Virus record (IMG/VR): IMGVR_UViG_3300030102_005125
Coordinates: 16,589 to 47,806 of that record
Reading direction: 5' to 3' (one strand)
Length of the DNA stretch: 31,218 bases
DNA from: a virus
The notes beneath the pieces are model-generated. The model did no database searches. It saw nothing but the letters and a program-made list of their open reading frames with translations, and had not been told where the DNA came from. Of this stretch, positions 2,670 through 30,788 are shown piece by piece; positions within the stretch are counted from its first letter, which is position 1; each line of letters starts with the position of its first letter. The position numbers and the translations under genes were made by a program.

Positions 2670-2876
2670 ATGTTATTAAAATTTGACCAAGCAGTAAAAA
2701 ATTTAAAACCTAATACTGAATATATTTATGTGGGTAAAATTGAAACAGAAGAAGATTTTAATAAAGTTAAATGGGTAACTGGAGTCAACAGTGACAATGA
2801 AGCTATCACAACTTTAATTAATCCACATAGCGAATTAAGTTGGACAGCCGTCAAGGCGGAGATGGATAAGCTGTAA
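2670..2876 (+). CDS. Small conserved protein next to tail-fibre genes, possibly fibre-assembly factor
   Basis: 68 aa, starting one base after the previous stop, with GGAG in the upstream 'aggagctta'. It has no signal peptide or membrane segment. Its last residues (LSWTAVKAEMDKL) form a short amphipathic helix of a kind often seen at the end of small proteins encoded after phage fibre genes. By position it could be a fibre-assembly chaperone or a minor structural protein, but I recognise no family with certainty. The following gene begins directly at 2877, with no gap. Confidence 0.55.
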   Translation: MLLKFDQAVKNLKPNTEYIYVGKIETEEDFNKVKWVTGVNSDNEAITTLINPHSELSWTAVKAEMDKL

Positions 2877-3512
2877 ATGACCTTTGGCGCTGCATCATTC
2901 GGTGAGCGTGCCTTTTCTGAGGACGTTGATCAAAATGCCGTAGTAGCGGTAACCGGACAACAATTAACCTCTGGTTTAGGTACAGTCACAGTAACAGCTG
3001 GTGTATTAGTACAGCCAACTGGTATATCTTTTTCTGCTAACGTTGGCACTGTAACCGTTGTAACTGAAATTATAGTATCACCTACAGGTGTGGGTGCAAC
3101 AATGTCTGTTGGAGATGTTGTAGTAACAGCTGGTGTATTAGTTTTACCAACAGGTTTACAAATTACATCATCTCTTGGCACAGTGACTGTAAGCGGTTCT
3201 GCTCTTGTAGAACCTACAGGTGTTGTTTCTACTTTTGCTGTAGGAGATCCTAACGTATCAGGTTCTGCTCTAGTTGCACCAACAGGAGTGTCCTCGACAT
3301 TTGCTGTAGGAAGTGTTACATTAGAGTCAAGATATTTTCCTGCTGGTGTGCAGGCAACATTTGGTTTAGGAACAGTGACTGTAGTAGCTTCTGCTTTAGT
3401 CATACCAAATGGTGTAAGCATAACGTCAGCAGTAGGAGATCCAAAATTAACAATTTGGAACGGTGTAGACGATTCCAGCGGCAATTCATGGACTGTCGTT
3501 ACAACAGGATAA
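2877..3512 (+). CDS. Tandem-repeat beta-rich virion protein (eight ~22-residue repeats)
   Basis: 211 aa. The first 25 residues (MTFGAASFGERAFSEDVDQN...) are unique. The rest is tandem repeats with consensus TGVxxTxxVGxVTVxxxALVxP: five of 22 residues, one of 20, one of 22, and a last one that runs into the C-terminal cap WNGVDDSSGNSWTVVTTG. Regular short repeats rich in Val, Thr and Gly with no charge suggest a stacked beta fibre, such as a beta-helix or beta-prism shaft. Cap motifs of the form 'W..v....g..W..v' are common in marine phage structural genes. Placed among fibre genes, it is probably a fibre or needle shaft or a head/tail decoration protein. Start follows the previous stop directly. 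Confidence 0.65.
   Translation: MTFGAASFGERAFSEDVDQNAVVAVTGQQLTSGLGTVTVTAGVLVQPTGISFSANVGTVTVVTEIIVSPTGVGATMSVGDVVVTAGVLVLPTGLQITSSLGTVTVSGSALVEPTGVVSTFAVGDPNVSGSALVAPTGVSSTFAVGSVTLESRYFPAGVQATFGLGTVTVVASALVIPNGVSITSAVGDPKLTIWNGVDDSSGNSWTVVTTG
2952..3473 (+). repeat. In-frame tandem repeat, 66-bp unit, eight copies
   Basis: Within the gene at 2877-3512, residues 26-199 are eight units of 22 codons (the sixth is 20 codons). At DNA level the units are degenerate but keep stretches such as 'ggttctgctct(t/a)gt' and 'tttgctgtaggag', repeated in units 4 to 6. Units 4, 5 and 6 are the most alike, which suggests recent amplification there. Copy number could vary between related phages through recombination between units. 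Confidence 0.75.
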
Positions 3513-16346: not shown

Positions 16347-17015
16347 GTGCAATTAGTTAAGAAATATAATTACGCAGAATTAAAAAGAAAAGAAGGGGAC
16401 ACAAGGTTATATTTAACACCTGATGGTGAAGCTTTGCCTTCTGTAACCAGTATATTATCTAAAACAAAAGATAAATCTTTTCTAAAAAAATGGCGTGCCA
16501 AAGTTGGTGAAGAAGAAGCAGAAAAAATAATACGTGATTCTGCTAAGATTGGGACCGCGCTCCACCTATACATAGAACGTTTTGTGAACGGAGATAAATA
16601 CAAAGATTTGACAAAAGTTGGTGTTCAAGCAGAAAAAATGGCACAGAAAATAATTGATGAAGCTTTTAAAGATATAACAGAAATATGGGGATCAGAAGTA
16701 CATTTGTATAATCCAGGCAAATATGCTGGCACAACAGATATGGTGGGTGTTTACAAAAATAAACCTACAATTATAGATTTTAAACAAACCAATAGACCAA
16801 AGAAAAGAGAATGGGTACAGGATTATTTAATGCAACTAGCAGCGTACGCCGCGGCTCACAATGCAATATTTAATACTGAAATTGAACAAGGTGTGGTGTT
16901 AATGTGTTCTCGTGATTTAACGTTTCAAAGATTCGAATTGACAGGTGAGAATTTTGTACGCGCTACTAATGCATTTATGAAAAAATTGGATGCATACAAT
17001 GCAAGCATAATCTAA
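16347..17015 (+). CDS. PD-(D/E)XK nuclease (RecB/Cas4-like exonuclease)
   Basis: About 222 aa from the GTG at 16347. The open frame continues upstream to 16173, but that part overlaps the lysozyme gene in another frame and looks non-coding; the recognisable protein begins QLVKKYNYAELKRKEG. PD-(D/E)XK motifs in order: GTALHLYIERF (His73), SEVHLYNPGKYAG (Glu117), TTDMVGV (Asp131), TIIDFKQT (Asp144, Lys146), and the helical QLAAY motif (Gln163, Tyr167). This matches phage RecB-family exonucleases that resect or degrade DNA during recombination. Its stop is one base from the stop of the minus-strand helicase, so the two genes converge. The start is uncertain because no good ribosome site precedes it. 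Confidence 0.8.
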   Translation: MQLVKKYNYAELKRKEGDTRLYLTPDGEALPSVTSILSKTKDKSFLKKWRAKVGEEEAEKIIRDSAKIGTALHLYIERFVNGDKYKDLTKVGVQAEKMAQKIIDEAFKDITEIWGSEVHLYNPGKYAGTTDMVGVYKNKPTIIDFKQTNRPKKREWVQDYLMQLAAYAAAHNAIFNTEIEQGVVLMCSRDLTFQRFELTGENFVRATNAFMKKLDAYNASII

Positions 17016-25774: not shown

Positions 25775-26292
25775 GTTGGATATGTAAAACACTTTTAATT
25801 TGTTTAACATTTAAACCTGTCATGGATTACAAAAACAATGATGAATTTATATATCAAGTTCGTGCATGTGCATTACATTTGAACTCTATGCATGTTGAAG
25901 CAGACCGAGTGCCTGTAAATCTCATAGTTGCACAAGCTATACATGAGTCAAATTGGGGCAAATCTAGATTTGCTGTTGAAGCAAACAATCTTCTTGGGAT
26001 ACGCACATTTGACCCAACTGATGATCAACTAAAGCCGCTTAATAATCCTAATGCGACGTGGGGGCTTAGGATCTTTGAGACAAAGTGCGAATCCATTTCG
26101 TATTATATGGATTTATTAAATCATAATCATCATTATTATAAGTTTAGAAGTGAGCGAATAAGTCAGCATTTCAGCGATAAAATAGACTTAGAAAAACTAG
26201 CTATGACACTTGCAATATATGCTGAAGATGTATATTATACGCAAAAAATCATCAGAACAATTAGAGAACTAGAGGCCTATGACAGAGACTAA
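25771..26292 (+). CDS. Glucosaminidase-like peptidoglycan hydrolase (GH73/Bax type)
   Basis: 173 aa with AGGAGG a few bases before ATG 25771. The core segment VNLIVAQAIHESNWGKSRFA then VEANNLLGIRTF is the GH73/Bax signature, with Glu59 as probable catalytic acid. NATWGLRIFETKCESISYYM and LAIYAEDVYYTQKI match the later conserved segments. The hydrophobic N-terminus (WICKTLLICLTF) could be an export signal, unlike the lysozyme at 15899-16339. It cuts peptidoglycan sugar chains. Location in the replication region rather than with the late genes suggests a role other than lysis, for example reshaping the host wall early, but this is inference. Confidence 0.8.
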   Translation: MSWICKTLLICLTFKPVMDYKNNDEFIYQVRACALHLNSMHVEADRVPVNLIVAQAIHESNWGKSRFAVEANNLLGIRTFDPTDDQLKPLNNPNATWGLRIFETKCESISYYMDLLNHNHHYYKFRSERISQHFSDKIDLEKLAMTLAIYAEDVYYTQKIIRTIRELEAYDRD

Positions 26293-27415
26293 GAAACCCG
26301 GGTACCGAGAACAAGGCAAAGCTAGATCTGGCAATGTCAAAAGTAATTTTGCAATTAACCCAGAGCAAATGGAATTTGAAAGAAGAAAAGTTCTTGAACA
26401 AATGTCTACAAAAGTTGACCAAAAGAAACTTAACAACATGGCTGCAGTTGCAGCTACGGTAGAACCAAAATATTTTAAAACAACCAATTTACTTAAAAAT
26501 GGAAAACCAGCAGAATATGATAGCACAGAGGGTAAGGGTGAACAACGTGAGCCTACCATGCGTGTATTATCATTGGGAGCTGGTGTGCAATCATCGTGTT
26601 TAGCATTGATGGCACAAGAAGGATTAACAAAGCATAAACCAGATTATATGATATTTGCTGATACTGGATGGGAACCTAAATTTGTGTATGAGCATGTAGA
26701 ATACCTTAAAAAAGCAATAACGATTTGTCCGCTGATTACTGTAGAGAGAGGAAACATCAGAGAAGACCTTATCAAAGCAGCGAATCCAATACCAGGATCT
26801 AAAGAAGAGGAAAAATCATTTGCTGGACGTGTACCAAACCCTCCGCTGTTTGCTGCACGACAAGGTGGACGTGTGGGGATGCTTTATCGTCAGTGTACGC
26901 ATGACTATAAAGTTATCCCTATTCAAAAAAAGATTAGAGAATTACTTGGTGTAAAGCCGAAACACAGAGTGCCTAAAGATATGATTGTAGAACAATGGAT
27001 AGGCATATCTACAGATGAAGCTATGCGTATGAAAAAAGCTAGATTACCGTGGTTAGAATCAAGATGGCCCTTAATAGAAATGGGTATGTCACGTATGGAT
27101 TGTCTTAATTGGTATCGAGATATAAAAAAACATCCTATGCCTGGCAAATCATCGTGCATAGGTTGTCCTTATCATCACAATGATCAATGGAAAAACATGC
27201 AAAAAAATTACCCTGAAGATTTTGCTGATGCCGTAGAAGTAGACAATCTTATTAGAAACGGTTTAAAAAACTCAGAAGCAAAGTTATATTTACACAAATC
27301 AGCTAAACCATTGGGAGAAATAAATTTCTTAGAACCAAAGAAACAAGCATCATTATTTGGTGAAACATTTGATGAAGAATTTGCAGACGAATGTGAAGGC
27401 TTGTGTGGAGTTTGA
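26279..27415 (+). CDS. PP-loop ATPase, PAPS reductase/DndC-like (adenine nucleotide alpha hydrolase fold)
   Basis: 378 aa. After ~90 basic, poorly structured residues, the catalytic core begins: VLSLGAGVQSSCLALM (PP-loop, 97-111), MIFADTGWEPKFVYEHVEYL (124-143), then LYRQCTHDYKVIPIQKKIRE (Cys206) and VEQWIGISTDEAMRM. Cysteines at 206, 275, 293 and 296 (SSCIGCPYH) could bind an Fe-S cluster, and the tail ECEGLCGV adds two more. These features are shared by phage 'PAPS reductase-like' proteins and the DndC family, which activate a substrate with ATP for sulfur or reductive chemistry. The true substrate is unknown. It overlaps the upstream gene by 14 bases and the small zinc-ribbon gene downstream. 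Confidence 0.8.
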   Translation: MTETKKPGYREQGKARSGNVKSNFAINPEQMEFERRKVLEQMSTKVDQKKLNNMAAVAATVEPKYFKTTNLLKNGKPAEYDSTEGKGEQREPTMRVLSLGAGVQSSCLALMAQEGLTKHKPDYMIFADTGWEPKFVYEHVEYLKKAITICPLITVERGNIREDLIKAANPIPGSKEEEKSFAGRVPNPPLFAARQGGRVGMLYRQCTHDYKVIPIQKKIRELLGVKPKHRVPKDMIVEQWIGISTDEAMRMKKARLPWLESRWPLIEMGMSRMDCLNWYRDIKKHPMPGKSSCIGCPYHHNDQWKNMQKNYPEDFADAVEVDNLIRNGLKNSEAKLYLHKSAKPLGEINFLEPKKQASLFGETFDEEFADECEGLCGV

Positions 27416-27587
27416 TCGTAAGTTTGTAAGACCTGGACCAGAGTTTAGATGCTACAATTGTGGCAAATGGTTTACTAGACTGTTATACTGGACAGATAAA
27501 AAATTTAACCCGCAACAGAAACATAAGTTGCATTTTTTATGTGGGGCTGTTTGCGCAACGGAGAAATATGAGCGAAGTAATAAGTAA
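27405..27587 (+). CDS. Small zinc-ribbon protein
   Basis: About 60 aa from GTG 27405, chosen because GAAGG lies five bases upstream; the same frame is open further upstream, inside the PP-loop gene. The protein has two Cys pairs, RCYNCGKWF (CxxC) and FLCGAVCATE (CxxxC), about 30 residues apart, with basic residues between (KKFNPQQKHK), the layout of a structural zinc ribbon. It is probably a DNA-, RNA- or protein-binding factor. It overlaps the PP-loop gene at its start and the 2OG oxygenase at its end, so it is likely made together with them. I do not recognise a named family. Confidence 0.65.
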   Translation: MEFDRKFVRPGPEFRCYNCGKWFTRLLYWTDKKFNPQQKHKLHFLCGAVCATEKYERSNK

Positions 27588-28206
27588 AATACCAATACAA
27601 GATACAAGATTGTTTTACAAAAGGTACAACAATTATGAAAATCTTAATAATTTATTAATGACAGAAATAGAAAAAGAACGAGGTAACAATCCTAGTGGTA
27701 TGATAAGCACGAATCCTGGTTGTTGGCGTAGTATGTTTAAATTTGAATGTGAAAAAGAACTTATGAAACCAATAGGTATGATAATGTCAGCATATATGGA
27801 TCATTACTTTCCTAAAAAACCTATGGATGCAAGCATAACATATTGGACAAATGTAAACGAGACAGGTAGCAACAACATATTTCATTCACACTACCGTGCA
27901 GACGCAGATCTATCAGGTGTGTATTATGTACAAGGAGCTAACACAGGTCTAATTAGATTTGCTACACACGAACAAATGTATCGTATGATACCTAATCACA
28001 TGCCTCATGCTAATATGATAGCGCATTCACCTAGTGATGGTGACATACTTTGTTTTCCATCTTATCTTTTACATGATGTAGACATAAACAGAAGTAATAG
28101 ACAACGTATTACAATTGCTTTTAATGCAAAAATTAAGTTTAAAGAAGAATCAAACATAATAAATATGCCTGATAGGAGCAAAAAAGATGAATCATTGGAG
28201 AAATAA
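27568..28206 (+). CDS. 2-oxoglutarate-Fe(II) dioxygenase
   Basis: 212 aa from ATG 27568, which has CGGAGAA six bases upstream; the open frame also extends upstream to 27460 but only through the neighbouring gene. The double-stranded beta-helix core is visible: NIFHSHYRADADLSGVYYVQ (His106, His108 region), GLIRFATHEQ, SPSDGDILCFPSYLLHDVD (His169) and SNRQRITIAFNAKI (Arg180). This is the phage 2OG-Fe(II) oxygenase pattern of the PF13759-type: H-x-H/D, a distal His and an Arg that binds 2-oxoglutarate. Likely hydroxylates a protein, nucleotide or nucleic acid base. It forms a cassette with the PP-loop enzyme before it and the SufE-like gene after it. Confidence 0.75.
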   Translation: MSEVISKIPIQDTRLFYKRYNNYENLNNLLMTEIEKERGNNPSGMISTNPGCWRSMFKFECEKELMKPIGMIMSAYMDHYFPKKPMDASITYWTNVNETGSNNIFHSHYRADADLSGVYYVQGANTGLIRFATHEQMYRMIPNHMPHANMIAHSPSDGDILCFPSYLLHDVDINRSNRQRITIAFNAKIKFKEESNIINMPDRSKKDESLEK

Positions 28207-28339
28207 CGAAGAAATGGCGGTTTGGGACCCTGGTGAAAAAACGGCGGTTTTCAGCCAAATAAAAAAGCTCATAATTGCCCGGTATCGGGCTTTAAGAGAG
28301 TGGGCTGTGTGTTTGTACCCGGGTAAAAGACTAAAATGA
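28187..28339 (+). CDS. Small basic protein, 50 aa
   Basis: A 50-codon frame from ATG 28187 to TGA 28339 that fills the gap after the oxygenase gene. It has AGGAG eight bases upstream (28174-28178), starts within the last 20 bases of the oxygenase gene and overlaps the next start as ATGA. Sequence begins MNHWRNNEEMAVWDPGEKTA, continues with a basic helix (IKKLIIARYRALREWAVCL) and ends YPGKRLK. It is more G+C-rich than its surroundings and contains a hairpin. Function unknown; the helix pattern and Trp residues hint at a membrane-surface or nucleic-acid contact. Confidence 0.6.
   Translation: MNHWRNNEEMAVWDPGEKTAVFSQIKKLIIARYRALREWAVCLYPGKRLK
28277..28290 (+). promoter_or_regulatory. Short G+C-rich inverted repeat within a small gene
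   Basis: GCCCG-GTAT-CGGGC forms a perfect 5-bp stem with a four-base loop, with six A's upstream (28261-28266) and TTT right after it. In RNA it could be an attenuator, a weak intrinsic terminator or a processing site at the boundary between the oxygenase and the small exported gene. The T run is only three bases, so strong termination is unlikely. It overlaps coding sequence of the 50-aa gene. Confidence 0.3.
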
Positions 28340-28524
28340 CCCAATTATTTGTCTTGGTCATTAGTTTGTGGGGTTTTGATGGTAACGAGTGGGTTTACGT
28401 TGGTAATCAGATTGTGTTAAACGAACCTATGATAAAAGAGGAGTGTATGGAGATAAGAGAAGACTGGTCATGGCATGAACAAAATGAGTTTTATCGTTTT
28501 TCTATAGAGTGTCATGAAGCATGA
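28336..28524 (+). CDS. Small exported two-cysteine protein
   Basis: 62 aa, coupled by ATGA to the gene before it. A hydrophobic N-terminus (MTQLFVLVISLWGF) lacking charge could be a signal peptide. The mature part has a short beta stretch (EWVYVGNQIVLNEP) and two cysteines at about 36 and 59 (EECMEIREDW, FSIECHEA) suited to a disulfide in the periplasm. Two proteins on the minus strand (29174-29479 and 29855-30079) share the arrangement of hydrophobic lead, beta stretch, first Cys in a helix and a final Cys. The family is unnamed to me. Overlaps the SufE-like gene by 11 bases. Confidence 0.6.
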   Translation: MTQLFVLVISLWGFDGNEWVYVGNQIVLNEPMIKEECMEIREDWSWHEQNEFYRFSIECHEA

Positions 28525-28987
28525 TAAATGTGGCACACCTGATTGTTGTCAGGAGTGTGGACCAATACAAACTAAACTAAATAGATACGTACAAATACTT
28601 AGTAACATAGAAGATGATCAAGACAAGTACGTGTGGATCATGGATTTTGGTAAAAATTCTTTGCCTATGGATGAAGAACATAAAGCACCATCGTTTGAAG
28701 TAAAAGGATGTCAAACACAAACTTGGTTGGTGCCACACTTTGTAGATTATAAAATATATTTTACTGCAGATTCAGCTGCACTTATATCTAAAGGTATGGT
28801 TAGTATAATAGCAGACGTGTACAGTGGCTCGAGCGCCCAGGACATCAACGAATTTGATCAGGATAATTTTAACGAATTAAAGCTAGATACTTTACTTACA
28901 CCAGGTAGAAATAACGGTGTGCATAGTATGTTAAAGAAAGTTAAAACTTATGCCAATAATTTTAATAATTTTATTAATGCTACTTGA
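28514..28987 (+). CDS. sufE: SufE-like Fe-S cluster assembly sulfur acceptor, with Cys-rich N-terminus
   Basis: 157 aa. The SufE fold is clear: YVWIMDFGKNSLPMDEEHKA, FEVKGCQTQTWLVPHFVDYK (active-site Cys66; 'V.GCqsqvWl'), IYFTADSAALISKGMVSIIA ('gdSDA.iv.Gl..il'), VYSGSSAQDINEFD and LLTPGRNNGVHSMLKKVKTY ('Lsp.R.nGl..m...i...a'). SufE takes sulfur from the cysteine desulfurase SufS and hands it to the Fe-S scaffold. The first 16 residues are not part of normal SufE: MKHDKCGTPDCCQECG has four cysteines (6, 11, 12, 15) that could bind metal or accept sulfur. The phage presumably boosts or redirects host sulfur transfer. It ends the rightward block and overlaps the minus-strand operon by eight bases. 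Confidence 0.85.
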   Translation: MKHDKCGTPDCCQECGPIQTKLNRYVQILSNIEDDQDKYVWIMDFGKNSLPMDEEHKAPSFEVKGCQTQTWLVPHFVDYKIYFTADSAALISKGMVSIIADVYSGSSAQDINEFDQDNFNELKLDTLLTPGRNNGVHSMLKKVKTYANNFNNFINAT

Positions 28988-30079: not shown

Positions 30080-30150
30080 TGACCTATACTATAAATGCAT
30101 AGCAAACCTAGTGCTATTGATACCCAAATTGCATAGTATAAATATCTCAT
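30076..30150 (-). CDS. 24-aa membrane micropeptide
   Basis: A 24-codon frame (MRYLYYAIWVSIALGLLCIY then SIGQ) with an excellent ribosome site, AAAGGAG, six bases before its ATG. Its start overlaps the stop of the preceding gene (ATGA) and its stop overlaps the next start (ATGA), an arrangement that would be unlikely for a chance frame. The peptide is one transmembrane helix with a basic N-terminus and aromatic flank, and could be a pinholin-like or membrane-protein regulator. It occupies what otherwise would be a 67-base gap. Confidence 0.6.
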   Translation of the reverse strand: MRYLYYAIWVSIALGLLCIYSIGQ

Positions 30151-30788
30151 TTTTGCTCCTTTAAATCGTAAAAGTAATTAGTATCATCGCCTGCTGTCCA
30201 CTTACTTTTATTTTCTACTGAATAATATTCTGTTGACACTTTAAAATCAGGTTGTTTTGTTTCTGATGGTGTAAGTGATTTATCATAATATATAATTCTA
30301 TTGTTTGGTTGTGCTGCGTAGTGACCGTTGTCTAATTCTAAAATATTAAATGATTTATGTTCTTCTGGTACTTCGCTGTAGCTGGTGTTTAACGTGTTGT
30401 GATCAGAATGACAGTTGTCAATTGTAAGTAAATATTCTCCGTGATACCATTTCTTTGATGGTGCAAGATATTTACAACGAACACCTGCTATGGATTGTTT
30501 TTCTATTACAGTGAGATGATAACTAAACGCATCCCACAATTCTAATTCTTCTAATGGGAGATCATCTTTAACATCAGGGGAAGAAACAAAAGCACTAATA
30601 GGGAGCTTATCGTATAGAGCACCATATTCCGGCAAATACGTTTCAAAATATAAGGCTCTGCCTTGGATTGATTTACAACTAATCCAAACACCTTCTACAA
30701 AATCTCCATGTCCTTTTTGATGATCATATAAATAATGTTTTTTGACAAAGACTTTTATTGGAGGTAGATTTGCTACCAGGAACGCCAT
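30147..30788 (-). CDS. Conserved phage protein, unknown function (213 aa)
   Basis: 213 aa. The N-terminal half has a strong conserved-looking block: MAFLVANLPPIKVFVKKHYL, GHGDFVEGVWISCKSIQGRA, LYFETYLPEYGALYDKLPIS. I recognise this kind of block from marine phage genomes, but not with a known function. The middle has WDAFSYHLTVIEKQSIAGVR and KKWYHGEYLLTIDNCHSD, and the C-terminus is polar. No signal peptide, membrane segment or metal motif is apparent. Largest gene of the leftward string. It starts by TAATG overlap and ends by ATGA overlap with the micropeptide. Confidence 0.65.
   Translation of the reverse strand: MAFLVANLPPIKVFVKKHYLYDHQKGHGDFVEGVWISCKSIQGRALYFETYLPEYGALYDKLPISAFVSSPDVKDDLPLEELELWDAFSYHLTVIEKQSIAGVRCKYLAPSKKWYHGEYLLTIDNCHSDHNTLNTSYSEVPEEHKSFNILELDNGHYAAQPNNRIIYYDKSLTPSETKQPDFKVSTEYYSVENKSKWTAGDDTNYFYDLKEQK

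Follow-up and report, generated by a model that had tools for sequence, protein, structure and literature searches.

A SufE-family protein encoded by a marine phage carries, immediately after its start codon, a short block of one histidine and four cysteines that also occurs on many unrelated viral proteins. The window, i.e. the whole stretch of DNA that was analysed, comprises 31,218 nucleotides (positions 16,589 to 47,806 of IMG/VR record IMGVR_UViG_3300030102_005125). The best overall explanation, which we regard as fairly likely, is that a real SufE has been fused to a portable, virus-specific mini-module that would act in trans and probably binds metal. The gene and its tag comprise the following features.

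28514 to 28987, plus strand: SufE coding sequence, 157 amino acids plus stop, with a PF02657 score of 113.4 bits and the fold of E. coli SufE.
28595 to 28948, plus strand: SufE domain, residues 28-145, Pfam match.
28709 to 28711, plus strand: codon of the catalytic persulfide cysteine, Cys66 (KGCQTQ), invariant in 50/50 viral SufE rows; in the alignment with E. coli SufE it falls in the GCQSQ loop.
28517 to 28564, plus strand: N-terminal cassette of 48 nt, residues 2-17 (KHDKCGTPDCCQECGP), present or absent in frame in relatives with the same upstream DNA and optional among viral SufE genes.
28520 to 28558, plus strand: motif H3-x2-CGTPDCC-x2-C15, the same motif as in at least about 240 viral loci and at least 28 carrier families.

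The SufE identity of the gene at 28514-28987 and its linkage, described below, are near certain. A Pfam profile search matched the product to PF02657 over residues 28-145 (E = 7.3e-33, 113.4 bits), where the curated cut-off is 27 bits. The nearest solved sequences are SufE and CsdE proteins, and an AlphaFold2 model built from viral relatives (mean pLDDT 89.8) had E. coli SufE (1mzg) as its top Foldseek match, with an E value of 7e-9 and a TM-score of 0.74-0.84. Cys66 is kept in all 50 viral SufE rows along with the TPGR-N-G block. The full SufE-type domain and the active-site Cys66 that an earlier note had read from the letters of this DNA are both confirmed by these results. The cut-offs of the narrower NCBIfam models were not reached, either for the SufE equivalog NF006792 (84.0 vs 160 bits) or for CsdE TIGR03391 (48.5 vs 136.4 bits), and the product is a member of the SufE family outside the SufE and CsdE equivalogs.

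Residues 1-16 of the protein are MKHDKCGTPDCCQECG. The four N-terminal cysteines stand at C6, C11, C12 and C15, exactly where the earlier note had placed them, though it overlooked His3, which is equally conserved and part of the same block. Its statement that ordinary SufE proteins lack N-terminal cysteines agrees with the cellular proteins examined, none of which has three or more (0/31; 30 from a MAG-centred, Bacteroidota-type sample and one from E. coli). By profile search, 91 SufE relatives were detected in viral contigs, and 80 of them were retained. Alignment of the N-termini revealed no free variation of the cysteines: in viral SufE relatives the block is complete and invariant or missing as a whole, with no intermediate state. 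Since those close relatives that possess the block preserve it, and the 31 cellular SufE proteins lack it, the extension is not due to chance.

Comparison of the DNA of the relatives defined the cassette as 48 nt inserted in frame immediately after the start codon, and in nearly all close tag-less relatives the start codon lies exactly at the beginning of the domain. The cassette is present in loci L150 and L151 and missing in L168, L171, L160, L153 and L158 despite near-identical upstream DNA; a second upstream context also occurs in two states (L148, L149 and L142 vs L162 and L163). Of the 67 viral SufE rows, 15 have it; the tree of SufE domains (67 domains, 15 tagged) requires seven state changes, at least four of which are forced by well-supported branches. 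The cassette has been gained or lost several times in viral SufE. Its in-frame presence or absence, together with these repeated changes, identifies the block as an accessory and not as a part of the SufE family. No copy relocated elsewhere was found in the records of untagged SufE phages, so the module is not essential. AlphaFold modelled the tag with moderate confidence (mean pLDDT 63 for residues 1-10) as a loop without secondary structure.

Viral contigs were scanned for two forms of the motif, H-x2-C-G-T-P-[DE]-C-C-x2-C (13 residues), which together gave at least about 240 loci with the motif in frame. The scan for the Asp form accepted any sequence coding for CGTPDCC, with the histidine and the last cysteine left out of the pattern, and returned at least 120 loci; among the matches listed, 123 of 131 in-frame CGTPDCC cases had both a His at -3 and a Cys at +9, and the remaining eight had neither and look like chance frames. 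The scan for the Glu form (CGTPECC) required the histidine and the last cysteine and also returned at least 120 loci, with an open frame in 120/120 of those listed. A control pattern with an altered Thr codon gave 13 matches, all chance-like, and a chance origin of the motif was rejected on this basis. The consensus is [EVKI]-H-x-[NK]-C-G-T-P-[DE]-C-C-[GQN]-x-C-[DE].

After masking of the motif, the carriers fell into at least 28 groups under lenient single linkage; the largest, with 142 loci, links modular proteins in a chain through other modules that they share, and family counts depend on the clustering. The motif is N-terminal, C-terminal or internal in unrelated phage carriers, which range from a 28-residue micro-protein to modular proteins of 1,300 residues. 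They include cytidyltransferase-type modular proteins (phrog_3041), a Zeta-toxin/polynucleotide-kinase-like protein, DUF5824 proteins, a 53-amino-acid protein of Pelagibacter phage HTVC008M (AGE60369.1) and a protein of Methylophilales phage Melnitz-1 (QZI94305.1). Micro-protein carriers of 28-31 residues contain little beyond the motif itself. One of these, the 28-residue frame at 3313-3396 (plus strand) of contig L102, reads MKSFKRFLEHPNCGTPDCCQNCTEPVEE, a start resembling a T4-type capsid-targeting sequence, with the motif immediately after it and almost nothing more. In L249, L315, L088 and L334 the motif was observed in the C-terminal part of small phage proteins of the WHGGKGS...NWxRIF type. 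The suggestion of an auxiliary metabolic gene with a new architecture therefore stands in part: the phage SufE is real, but viral sufE is already known as an auxiliary metabolic gene from the ETNP oxygen minimum zone (PMC8940887, as excerpted), and the architecture is not specific to SufE, the motif being found on dozens of unrelated proteins.

A single motif copy was counted in 49/49 motif-bearing records of the Asp form (a fiftieth record searched held a chance match without the His and last Cys), in 37/37 records searched for either form and in 11/11 tag-bearing SufE records; these sets overlap and amount to about 85 distinct records of up to 221 kb. Most records are fragments, and one copy per genome can be asserted firmly only where the record is long or complete, as with the complete genome of HTVC008M (147 kb), which has one. 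The copy on SufE is the only one in the present 47.8-kb record. A search of 50,697 phage records with three consensus peptides detected the motif only in HTVC008M and Melnitz phages; weaker matches in Pseudomonas phages fall within the clamp-loader gene and were judged not credible. None was found in plasmids. In 84,980 cellular genomes, the search for the Asp form together with its His and Cys returned two matches: a chance frame of 34 residues and, as the sole credible one, a frame at 2847-3407 (plus strand) of L134, a 20-kb contig of a Saprospirales MAG. By eye, this contig also encodes SdhB-like, alternative oxidase-like and SufT-like proteins, and it could be a misbinned viral contig. Among 395 genomes of the same phylum, searched for either form, that genome alone matched. 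The motif is thus nearly restricted to viruses.

Pfam, NCBIfam and PHROGs contained no significant model over the motif when a micro-protein and small carriers were scanned, and no match was present in PDB sequences. CGTPDCC, CGTPECC and related strings were found in none of the open-access full texts searched, in which sequences are rarely printed as text. Judging from these searches, the tag appears to belong to no known family in the libraries covered.

That the tag is a portable module acting in trans is, in our view, likely. A single copy combined with free choice of carrier suggests action in trans, for which one copy per virus on any well-expressed protein would be enough; SufE would be one vehicle among many. 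Within this reading, metal binding is favoured by a small margin over its opposite. The arrangement H-x2-C-x4-CC-x2-C, with four cysteines and one histidine, points to a metal site, and the rigid GTP[DE] to an additional, specific contact. The motif would then be a self-contained mini-module whose His and Cys residues bind Zn2+ or an Fe-S cluster in the manner of a zinc knuckle, and the rigid CGTP[DE]CC turn would be presented to a single conserved partner, most probably a protein of the host. No neighbouring gene family occurs in more than 6 of the 28 carrier families, so a phage partner adjoining the carrier was rejected, and a host target or a self-contained function is likelier than a phage partner. 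Gene content of tagged and untagged SufE phages was also compared; the genes that emerged may be lineage-specific, and none was a convincing candidate. The product of 30147-30788 (minus strand) belongs to phrog_3704, called ferredoxin or PurM in phages, is 65% identical to its HTVC008M counterpart and is common in cyanophages; it has only three scattered cysteines, which makes the name ferredoxin doubtful. It was rejected as a partner of the tag because of its frequency in cyanophages and because no copy was detected in many of the tag-bearing records. More tentatively, and with rather less than even confidence, H-x2-CGTP[DE]CC-x2-C may represent an unrecognised class of viral mini-modules, carrier-independent, one per genome and trans-acting, that is spread across unrelated phage lineages (Pelagibacter and OM43 phages among them) and directed at a single conserved target of the host or the virus, for instance as a ligand serving takeover or counter-defence.

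The motif might instead be a short docking, localisation or packaging tag for its carrier, with no metal and with the cysteines serving as thiols or disulfides. Carrier independence, very short length and a terminal position on many small proteins would fit such a role. In several T4-like carriers the motif directly follows an MKxFxxFLxE-like start, presumably reminiscent of the T4 capsid-targeting sequence, which we take as a lead only. This start, however, is missing from SufE and from most carriers, a sorting signal for many proteins would not stay at one per genome, and the H-x2-C-x4-CC-x2-C spacing with four invariant cysteines and one histidine is typical of metal sites. We consider this reading unlikely.

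The earlier note had proposed that the phage diverts or boosts host sulfur flow and that the extra cysteines may bind metal or relay sulfur to a phage partner instead of SufB. Three genes upstream of SufE are relevant here.

26279 to 27415, plus strand: SspD-like PP-loop (N-type ATP pyrophosphatase) protein; phrog_424, 1.4e-45; PADLOC SspD, 7e-12; upstream of SufE in 64/66 loci with sufficient sequence.
27568 to 28206, plus strand: 2OG-Fe(II) oxygenase (PF13759, 5.2e-16), encoded between the PP-loop gene and SufE; a variable partner that some of the loci lack.
28336 to 28524, plus strand: open reading frame of 62 amino acids overlapping the SufE start by 11 nt, with upstream homologues in some relatives only.

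The PP-loop protein is labelled PAPS reductase in PHROGs (phrog_424). In a PADLOC scan, which covered three proteins, SspD (PDLC02782) matched its residues 204-347 at model positions 83-218 of 277. Its predicted fold, from a weak AlphaFold model (mean pLDDT 68.6), is that of an ATP pyrophosphatase resembling GMP synthetase, the sulfur transferase LarE and the tRNA thiolase NcsA, and eight cysteines are invariant, including CxxC at 293-296 and a C-terminal CEGxC. On sequence and model, it is a candidate phage nucleic-acid thiolation enzyme. Among loci whose upstream sequence is long enough, the gene precedes SufE in 13/13 tagged and 51/53 untagged ones; these mostly look like one phage lineage, so that the linkage does not represent many independent events. 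Host SufS would supply persulfide to the phage SufE, whose domain would do its usual job, and SufE may pass the sulfur on to SufB, to the PP-loop enzyme for use in nucleic-acid thiolation, or to each of them. The SspD-like protein is a likelier phage sulfur acceptor than the tag.

We regard it as improbable that the N-terminal cysteines form a SufE-specific relay or acceptor arm carrying persulfide from Cys66 to the SspD-like protein instead of SufB. Four conserved cysteines do adjoin a persulfide carrier, the SspD-like gene is upstream in every tag-bearing locus with room for it, and PP-loop proteins include sulfur transferases. Nearly all tag-less loci, however, have the same PP-loop/SufE pair, so the tag is not needed for it; the block is gained or lost cleanly, and an identical motif is found on dozens of proteins without an evident link to sulfur. 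Such an arm was therefore rejected, and what survives of the earlier proposal is a plausible phage partner in the linked PP-loop protein and plausible metal binding by the cysteines.

Translational coupling of the 62-amino-acid frame with SufE is possible. A 76-amino-acid frame at 27357-27587 (plus strand), with CYNC and CGAVC pairs, overlaps the end of the PP-loop gene, recurs in SufE loci and is possibly a small zinc protein. The DNA polymerase of the record shares 44-50% identity with its counterparts in four phages: HTVC023P and HTVC027P, which are Pelagibacter phages, and two more, for one of which the listed host is a gammaproteobacterium. This makes a host of the SAR11 type plausible.

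If this were an ordinary phage SufE whose N-terminal tail is of no significance, it would be understandable that most relatives keep the whole domain though they lack the block, and viral sufE is already on record (PMC8940887, as excerpted), but the motif is invariant across unrelated carriers and nearly absent from cells, which makes this reading very improbable. The Gly, Thr, Pro and Asp/Glu positions draw on every synonymous codon, and 162 distinct DNA instances encode the same motif residues; selection thus acts on the peptide and not on the DNA. This free codon use leaves scarcely any credibility to a mobile or regulatory DNA or RNA element translated in frame by accident, which presence in unrelated genes and a 48-nt insertion with clean edges might have suggested, and that reading was rejected.

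Unlike phage SufE, the tag itself has no record in the libraries or open-access papers searched. That a near-invariant core moves among unrelated viral proteins, one per record, and is hardly ever met in cells implies a target or cofactor that is both specific and conserved, and what appeared to be a stray extension becomes a testable question. The motif also provides a single string with which the relevant protein can be sought in marine phages that otherwise lack annotation. The PP-loop/SufE pair, for its part, suggests that these phages may direct host sulfur to nucleic-acid chemistry in addition to Fe-S assembly.

Among known metal-binding families, the CCHC zinc knuckle is defined by C-x2-C-x4-H-x4-C. 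The viral motif resembles it in its length of about 13-14 residues, in an x2-spaced C/H pair and in a further ligand after x4; it differs in the order and identity of the residues, in an additional cysteine and in the invariant GTP[DE], and no family model matched. The LDCC-motif mini metal-binding protein of NCBIfam (NF040898) is comparable to the L102 micro-protein as a tiny, CC-containing putative metal binder, but its model matches only the first nine residues of the latter (E = 0.27), outside the motif. The protein at 26279-27415 shares with SspD of Ssp DNA phosphorothioation a partial model match and a PP-loop-type ATP pyrophosphatase fold, whereas PHROGs places it with PAPS reductase, and the likeness is one of sequence and model. 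The sufE of ETNP viruses (PMC8940887) is likewise virus-encoded without SufS and interpreted in terms of Fe-S assembly; the excerpted text gives gene annotations, with the N-terminal module and the PP-loop linkage not described in it. With SufE and CsdE (PF02657; 1mzg) the viral protein has in common the domain, the fold, the GCQ catalytic loop and the conserved TPxR region; it is 31% identical to E. coli SufE, and differs from these systems in being encoded by a virus and in adding a 16-residue N-terminal His/Cys module.
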